Part shown: positions 13,001-16,000 of the stretch, in pieces
How positions within the stretch are numbered: position 1 is the first letter of the stretch
Layout: each line of letters opens with the position of its first letter
DNA from: Hyperoplus lanceolatus
Lineage: Eukaryota > Chordata > Actinopteri > Uranoscopiformes > Ammodytidae
DNA length: 64,000 nucleotides
Assembly (NCBI GenBank): GCA_026929865.2
Contig: CM049405.1
Span: 2,119,501-2,183,500 of the forward strand
Direction: 5' to 3'
The notes under the pieces: generated by a model
The model's database searches: none
Told to the model about the DNA's origin: nothing
What the model saw: only the letters and a program-made list of their open reading frames with translations
Translations under genes and position numbers: made by a program

Positions 13001-16000
13001 CTCCAGAACGTAGCCTAAGATCGGGGACTTGCCGTCGTCCAATGGCTCCTTCCAGCTCACCGTCATATGGTCTTTAGTCACGTTGGTGATCAATGGGGCC
13101 TCGCAAACACCGGGGACAGCTGCAAAAGAGAGAAAGGGTTAGATATGAGTTTAGATGTTAAAATATACAGTATGCAGCTCCGGAAAAAACTAAGAGACCA
13201 CTCCAAATGTTCAGTGTCTCTCGTTTTACTATTTAGAGGCATATGTTTGAGTAGAATGAACATTTTGGTTTTATAATATAAACTACTGACAACATTTCTA
13301 CCAAATTCCAAAACATGTTTTGTCATTAAGAGCATTTTCAATAAGTTATGTAGAGATGAAGATTGAAGAAAAATTCCTGACTGGTCCTTTCATTTTTTCC
13401 GGGGCTGTATGTTTATATGTATATGCCATACATTTGTATATAAAAGAGGTTGTTACTCACTGAATGGGTTCTTGGCGATGCACGGGCCTGTGACAAGCGG
13501 TTCTCCGACTCCCCACCCGTTCTCTGCTCTGATCCTGAACTGGTATTCCCTTCCTTCGATCAGTTTGCCCACGGTGTACTCCAGACAGTCTCCGCTGATC
13601 TTGTTGCAGACCTGGGCCCAGTTGGCTCGGCTGGTCTCACGCTTGTCCATGATGTAGTTGCTGATCTTGGCTCCTCCGTCCAGCAGTGGAGGCTCCCAGG
13701 TCATCTTGATGCTGGTGGCAAACACCTCCACGTACTCGGCCTTCGCAGGAGGGCCGGGAGCATCTGAGCAGACACAGAATAATGGAAACATTTTTTAGAA
13801 GATTCAAATTTGTCCTCCTCAAATCAAAACTTAAATGTACATCCAGTAGACTGCATATTGCACATATTGTACATATGTTTCATCATATTGCACATTGCAC
13901 ATTTCAATTTAACTTATCTACTTTTTACTTTCTATGCTATTTTATACATACTGTTTTATATTGAACAAAAGATTCCTTTGCACTACTTAGCATTTAGCAT
14001 TTATCTGATGTGAATATTGTTTAGGTTATGTTTTTTATTTTTATTTTAGTGGTTTTATGTTTTTTTTACATATGGACAAAGAAAAACTGAATAAGTAAAC
14101 ACATACAATACATACACAACACCCAACCCCCCCCCCCCCCCTCCCCCCCCCCCCTCCCCCTCCCCCCCTCCCTCCCCCCCTCCCTCCTCCCCCCTCCCCC
14201 TCCCCCCTCCCCCCCCCTCCCCTCCCTCCTCTCCTCCCCCCTCCCTCACATAAACAAGGAATACAGAAAAAAAGTGAATTCAATAACTAAGACAAAATGA
14301 TTAAGAAAATAAGCTATAAGTACACAAGAAACAAAACAAAGCTGGGGCAAAGTTTAGGTTACGTTTGACTCACCCAGTACGTTGACTATGATCTCTGCGG
14401 TCTTGGTTCCACTAGCGTTCTCGGCGTGGATGGTGTAGGTGGCGGTGTGCTCCTTCGTGACTGCGCTCATCTCGAGAGCGAAATGGTGTCTTTGCTGGGT
14501 GATGACTTGGCCCTCTGCAGACTTCAGGCTGTCGTCCGCTCTCTTCCATGTGACTCGGGGCATGGGCTTTCCGAACACATCCGCCTCTAGCAGGACAGTG
14601 CTGCCTGCCTTCACCTTGAAGCCCCTCTCCACACGGGCTGTCAGCTCAATCCTGGGAGGGACTGTGTGTGTGTGTGTGGAAAGAAGGATGAGAAAAAGTG
14701 TGAAAGTGTTATGACTAGGGGTCTGACTTGCGGACTTCAACTAACATGCTGCTAAGAAAAGAAAAGAAAAAAAATTAACAAAAAAAAAACCACAAAACCT
14801 TAAAATAGAATGAATTAAATGAAGTTAAATTAAAACCATGTCTCACCATGCTCATCTGAGACGAGGATAGCGTCTGTGGGCTCGGAGGGTTTGCTGACAT
14901 TGACGGCGGTTTTGGCGATGACTCTAAACTGGAAGGTCAAGTCTCTCTCCAGGCCGGTGACTGTGTATTCCTCACGCGGACAGTTCTGACTGCTGGTGTT
15001 AACACGGATCCAAGTGTCCCCTGGAACACGCATGGACTCCACGTAGTAGCCGATGATTTTACTGCCACCGTCATTCTTAGGACGAGTCCAAACGAGAGTC
15101 ACTGAGTTCTTAGTGACATCCAGGACTTCAGGTTTGCCGGGAGTGTCTGGGAAAATAGAAAGATATGATTTAACAAATTATTATTAACATTAACAAATTA
15201 AGGAAGCAAGATTAAGCCAAAAGCATAACAATGTTTAAGCATATTATTGTCTATTTAGCTTCCATAACATGTCTTTCCTTCGTACTAGTATAAATCAAAG
15301 GTCCAAAATTTACATTCAGGTGTTTATTTGATTTAACCTAAATCTGTTCAGTAAAAACTTTGGACACTTATATGTTGTAAAAATTAAATAAAGAATTAAA
15401 TCTGGCTTCATCCAACACCTAGATTTATGTCTTGAGAGAGATGCAAATGAACACATAGCTAGATAGACAGACAGACAGACAGACAGACAGACAGACAGAC
15501 AGACAGATAGACAGATAGATAGACAGAGAGAGAGAGAGATGATAGATAGATATAGATAGATAGATAGATAGATAAATAGAAAAATTCTACCTGACAGTGT
15601 CTCGACTTTAACAAAACAAAATAGATATGGTAACATTGGTTCTAAACTCACCAATGGGCGTTCTGGCAGTGACAAAGTCTGTCTTCTTGCTTGGTTTGCC
15701 CTGTCAGTGTCGGTTGATTAGCAAAACAAAACTGATATGGTATTCCAGGCCCTCAATAAGGCCGGCAGTGACAATGGCTTCTTGCTTGGTTGCCCTGTAC
15801 CACTAGTGACACTCAATGTGTTTAGCCTTCACCCACAGTAGACTGTTCCTCTCCTTGCGCTCGATGTAGTAGCCGGTGATGGGGCTTCCGTTGTCGCTCT
15901 CCGGAGGGTCCCAGGCCACAAACATACAGTCCTTGTTGGTCTTGTTGATGCGGCAGTTTAAGGGTTCGCTAGGAACCTCTGTGTTGGGTGGGACGGATGA

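Follow-up and report, generated by a model that had tools for sequence, protein, structure and literature searches.

The exon encoding FnIII domain 6 of the first C-zone super-repeat of a titin gene in Hyperoplus lanceolatus is damaged in the assembled sequence. Its reading frame is broken by two stop codons, and both sit in a sharply bounded, scrambled segment in which the expected exon is interwoven with DNA from about 100 nt downstream; the surroundings are clean. We consider it probable that the damage is an assembly or haplotype-collapse error in an exon that is otherwise normal and constitutive, and a very recent mutation or an assembly error is in any case likelier than the evolution of a titin without the domain.

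Domain order places the damaged exon at position 6 of the first C-zone repeat

We analysed a 64-kb stretch of DNA, hereafter the window. In HMM searches built from the window's own domains, its minus strand proved to carry the D-zone of a fish titin and the first part of the C-zone, and matches of titin domains in six-frame open segments of at least 25 aa fell on the minus strand only. From 62017 to 21880 the HMM matches are ordered in six full 7-domain repeats (Ig-Fn-Fn-Ig-Fn-Fn-Fn), followed by 11-domain repeats at 21277-12013, 11379-3810 and 3767-549 and the beginning of a fourth. Passages of PMC12241362 describe titin as having six D and eleven C repeats, in agreement with this order. A 990-aa stretch at 25515-22546 showed 81-85% identity to the best named fish titins among the best 120 of 434 matches.

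Apart from the damaged exon, every domain match in the HMM survey of the window lay within an open frame, and no second broken domain was seen among the HMM domain matches elsewhere in the 64 kb. Seventeen domains are split over two matches, and each pair has a frame-keeping combination among the two best donors and acceptors printed. The window contains no Ns and carries several long microsatellites at 97-100% match (e.g., 30419-30540 and 45411-45688). Rfam returned 0 matches to structured RNA families at gathering scores.

The first C-zone repeat, starting at 21277, reads Ig-Fn-Fn-Ig-Fn-[Fn]-Fn-Ig-Fn-Fn-Fn, in which the bracketed Fn is the damaged exon (15652..15978, minus strand). Because it is the sixth domain of an 11-domain pattern that directly follows six 7-domain D repeats, we assign it to position 6 (C1.6), the same place that the original prediction had given it. 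By structure-chain comparison, its best single match in the solved titin chain 8g4l_bm is residues 485-582, the middle Fn of an Fn-Fn-Fn run, judged by the spacing of the listed matches. On either side lie intact exons of 300 nt each, both on the minus strand: upstream the exon for FnIII domain 5 of C1 (16677..16976) and downstream the exon for domain 7 (14847..15146), numbered 54 and 56 in the original prediction.

The introns and exons of the window hold several further features. The intron preceding the damaged exon contains a perfect 21-bp inverted repeat with a 5-nt loop (16117-16163), 138 nt short of the acceptor; its RNA fold has an energy of -38.3 kcal/mol (z -10.5), a 15-nt core of an arm recurs at 6567-6581, and it is perhaps a remnant of a small mobile element. 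Two titin introns share a similar stretch (AAATAAACACCTGAATGTA...GGACCTTTGATTTATACTAGTA), at 15270-15335 and 61347-61480, which is probably a dispersed repeat. A clean 41-bp minisatellite (39473-39600; 3.1 copies, 98%) lies just within an intron, at 24 nt from the donor of an Ig exon with an open domain match. The second exon of domain C1.3 carries an acidic run (18446-18294), and the Periophthalmus protein P0056 has a Pro/Glu-rich run after the start of the same domain.

Two damaged patches interrupt an otherwise constrained exon

The damaged exon measures 327 nt, against the 303 nt expected from intact homologues. Its frame (15976-15653, minus strand) runs through 108 codons that read as FnIII apart from exactly two stops, a TAG at 15803..15805 and a TGA at 15704..15706, so that with these stops and a net gain of 24 nt there is no open reading frame through C1.6. 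With X at the stops, the exon still matched PF00041 at 36.6 bits (cut-off 25), compared with 53.9 bits for the intact homologue P0001. The acceptor CACCCAACACAG|AG and the donor ATTG|GTGAGT are both present. The stops, the FnIII identity and the intact splice sites reported by the original prediction are thereby borne out.

Both stops lie inside a scramble of about 120 nt (15823-15704) that the original prediction did not describe and that carries the net gain of 24 nt. The exon opens with an intact 5' part of 51 residues (15824..15976). There follows a first damaged patch (15764..15823), which replaces the homologues' NDTVVRTTEYPCA and holds the TAG. A normal island coding for GLIEGLEY (15740..15763), recognised from the translation and from comparison with homologues, separates it from a second patch (15704..15739), which replaces the homologues' TFRVSAINRAG and holds the TGA. 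The 3' end of the exon, up to the donor GTGAGT, is again intact (15652..15703), as judged from homologue comparison and exact matches.

Searched as protein with X in place of the stops, the exon retrieved 55 homologues. In 54 of these the 32 residues between VKA and QGKPS were whole and free of gaps, and we therefore regard this middle part as normally under strong constraint; the nearest group (n = 29) has a mean of 0.83 differences over the same residues. Since the homologue set consists mostly of predicted open frames, in which broken copies would be under-represented, the figure of 54 is a measure of constraint and not of the absence of broken copies elsewhere. The single exception, the partially annotated P0038 of Coryphaenoides rupestris, stops matching at ...NSLL in the same exon. 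This grenadier titin terminates a few residues past NSLL, a few codons ahead of the site damaged in the window, and its end is possibly a frameshift, an assembly fault or a limit of the annotation. FnIII domains at position 6 of the titin A-band C-zone (P0001-P0010, P0026-P0037 and others) resemble the window exon in Ig/Fn position, exon-end sequences, phase and splice sites, and differ from it in that the window exon has a scrambled middle of 120 nt with 24 additional nt and two stops. When C1.5-C1.7 of P0141, a Cyprinodon protein, was compared, true counterparts among the best 120 of 232 matches seemed limited, besides the protein itself, to P0178 (71%) and perhaps P0118, the others of these resembling other titin repeats. 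No relatives of P0001 were found in viral and prokaryotic contigs.

The ends of the exon have kept pace with their intact relatives. In pairwise counts, the exon has 3-10 differences from ten intact relatives over its first 51 residues, and these ten differ among themselves at 0-11 positions (median 6, 45 pairs); a consensus-based count (2/51) flatters the window, with no-majority positions filled as in P0001 and in the window itself, and the pairwise counts are free of this effect. The last 17 residues show 0-4 differences from 29 relatives (median 2), which among themselves have a median of 2 and a maximum of 6. In the damaged middle, 15 of the 32 expected residues are retained, 9 of them in the normal island. 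Because both ends differ no more than intact relatives do, we conclude that full constraint acted on the exon until recently, or does so still. Neutral decay of an old, dead exon was rejected on the same ground, with the 68 flanking residues inside the spread of intact relatives; gradual decay, moreover, would not mix in downstream DNA in order.

The patches interleave expected exon with DNA about 100 nt downstream

For each patch, similar DNA lies about 100 nt further on (repeat families D4 and D3). Pieces of patch 1 resemble the 3' end of the same exon, their likely source, and patch 2 resembles a stretch of the next intron (15632-15590) with 77% identity over 43 nt without gaps. Local alignment of the scramble with the downstream stretch scored 106.4, against a mean of 40.8 (sd 6.1, maximum 68.8) in 2000 dinucleotide shuffles. 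Between the damaged stretch and the DNA lying 40-260 nt from it, exact direct matches of at least 8 nt numbered six downstream, at offsets of 94, 95, 99, 110, 115 and 110, and none upstream; the six are collinear save for the last two, which overlap and are alternatives to each other. The one inverted exact match is a self-palindrome. The summed length of the exact matches is 61, and the highest value reached by any of 29 intact control exons is 27.

We then described each patch by a two-template model, in which the expected exon (available as degenerate codons only) and the downstream DNA serve as templates and jumps are allowed anywhere. Patch 1 scored 101.4 against 80.8 (sd 2.3, maximum 87.4), and patch 2 scored 73.4 against 64.4 (sd 1.8, maximum 68.0), each in comparison with 60 letter shuffles of the downstream template. 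Under a light switch penalty the model reproduces patch 1 by 7 template switches over 70 nt and patch 2 by 6 over 56 nt, with a single mismatch between them; under a heavier penalty, 5 and 4 switches suffice, at the cost of four mismatches and the deletion of five template bases. The piece ATTGAG in patch 1 matches the expected exon only out of order. The damaged letters fit the true sequence mixed with out-of-register neighbouring DNA, and a real repair event could yield the same.

A scan of the window for similarity to the next downstream stretch found 35 of 3185 positions that reach the score of the scramble. The seven other high-scoring regions examined in detail are all microsatellites or tandem arrays, and the remaining high rows listed are simple repeats. 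A plain tandem duplication was rejected as the source of the patches: the two patches, though similar, stand on either side of the GLIEGLEY island, and the copies alternate with sequence of the expected exon. An ATAG-type microsatellite (15455..15580, from the tandem-repeat listing) lies 72 nt past the exon. Its nearness was rejected as the sole cause, since 17 other exon-array pairs lie within 80 nt of each other, all with open domain matches in the exon (51 exons including the damaged one and 28 arrays, representing part of the window's exons).

An assembly or haplotype-collapse error is the probable origin

We infer that the mixture arose during assembly. Reads or two haplotypes may have been aligned about 100 nt out of register, for example around a heterozygous indel, and the consensus would then blend bases of the true exon with bases about 100 nt downstream; such blending would produce the two patches, the net gain of 24 nt and the two false stops. 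This out-of-register blend is favoured because the offset is nearly constant and the weave is fine, and so fine a weave is more easily made by a consensus than by a repair event. Artefacts are, in our judgement, also commoner than complex truncating alleles in titin. Passages of PMC8445201 describe ORF truncations in a collapsed diploid assembly, where variable-length internal repeats or nearby allelic variants misalign reads, and passages of PMC8081667 describe false duplications in vertebrate long-read assemblies, some of them at contig boundaries, together with consensus indels that cause frameshifts. The window exon shares with the cases in these passages a local blending or duplication, a broken frame and clean surroundings; it differs in that those errors were demonstrated by phasing or curation, whereas the cause here is deduced from the letters. 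Because the rest of the 64 kb looks clean, a gross error at exactly this place is not to be taken for granted.

A real and recent lesion, in which a single error-prone event altered the central part of the exon in this haplotype, is possible though on balance doubtful. The event could have been slippage or template switching in a register shifted by about 100 nt, or else end joining that took up templated pieces. Titin would be truncated if the exon were included, and such an allele would be rare or heterozygous, or mild because the exon is partly skipped. Most pieces of the patches are present nearby in direct orientation, and the out-of-order ATTGAG is better explained by repair copying than by an alignment blend. 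That the flanks stay inside the spread of intact relatives suits an event too young for decay, and the remainder of the window appears well assembled. Template switching at short scale has also been described (PMC7954356); the mutation clusters there are likewise dense and possibly copied from nearby DNA, whereas in the window the source runs in direct orientation and alternates with sequence of the expected exon. A real event would, however, be expected to leave contiguous copied blocks, and 9 to 13 switches in 126 nt around an untouched island make for a complex history. Truncation of ttn.2 is, furthermore, harmful in zebrafish. According to passages of PMC12854356, A-band truncations cause adult cardiomyopathy in heterozygotes, and homozygous embryos have diminished titin and disordered heart fibrils, the distal A-band line e232 being a milder exception.

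Permanent skipping of the exon in the species, with exon 54 joined to exon 56 and a first C-zone repeat of 10 domains, is very unlikely. The arrangement itself would permit it. All ends of the exon and of both its neighbours are in phase 1, exon 54 ending in phase 1 and exon 56 opening with two bases, so that the joining of 54 to 56 retains the frame; and the window, searched by HMM in six-frame open segments of at least 25 aa, offers no replacement copy between the two. On both counts the original prediction was right. The acceptor is among the weaker ones, at 3.2 on a simple weight scale (5 of 53 other acceptors equal or lower), and the very stable hairpin 138 nt upstream of it might hinder inclusion. 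Loss of single in-frame TTN exons may be tolerated, as is argued in passages of PMC9222585. The donor TTG|GTGAGT, in contrast, is strong, scoring 5.0 on the same scale with 5 of 52 other window donors equal or higher. Relaxed constraint was not found along the exon as a whole, the flanking codons lying inside the spread of intact relatives, which is unexpected for an exon long unused. With conserved flanks, a donor among the strongest in the window and an acceptor that is present though weaker, there is little sign of a long-idle exon.

Loss of the domain may also cost something, on the basis of the other C repeats (the model extends from the second C repeat to the M-band, the first being absent); passages of PMC10665226 place the strongest conservation of the C repeats at positions 1 and 7, not 6. 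Natural loss of this domain goes unreported in the portions consulted of the literature on teleost titin/connectin C-zone super-repeats and on zebrafish exon skipping. The obligate 10-domain repeat put forward in the original prediction is not supported: the conserved flanks (51 + 17 residues) and the strong donor give little sign of disuse, the damage itself looks like a single localized blending event and not like relaxed decay, and an assembly or allele error, which the same prediction had named as what would overturn it, is the likeliest reading. A variant in which domain 6 was lost very recently by one templated rewriting, the exon being skipped in all muscle and thick filaments built on a 10-domain first repeat, is just as improbable.

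Least credible of all, and in our view scarcely plausible, is an internal 132-nt intron (15832-15701; TGG|GTGAAG to ACAG|GGC, phase 0 at both ends) that removes both stops: its sites exist and the frame is kept, with a donor score (0.0) as low as that of a few window donors that are seemingly used, but at 5.0 the regular donor is by far the stronger, and a product without GLIEGLEY and the surrounding strands is not expected to adopt an FnIII fold.

Consequences for reading stops in titin

The C-zone bears on thick-filament length, and the position of this exon gives its damage a potential weight. In the TtnDeltaC1-2 mouse, removal of two C-zone repeats leads to shorter thick filaments and cardiomyopathy (passages of PMC5648799). 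The window exon is comparable in that both concern the length of the C-zone as a template for thick-filament length; the mouse is an engineered loss of two whole repeats, whereas the window would lack at most one domain and probably none. If a 10-domain first C-zone repeat were real after all, it would be a natural test of the titin ruler.

Stops in repetitive giant genes call for a check for out-of-register blending before exon loss is claimed. The pattern by which such a case can be spotted consists of clean flanks, splice sites in place and a mixture with DNA about 100 nt away. If the damage to C1.6 is an assembly or haplotype-collapse error, as we consider probable, the first C-zone repeat of the living fish would have its usual 11 domains in the product of at least one allele.
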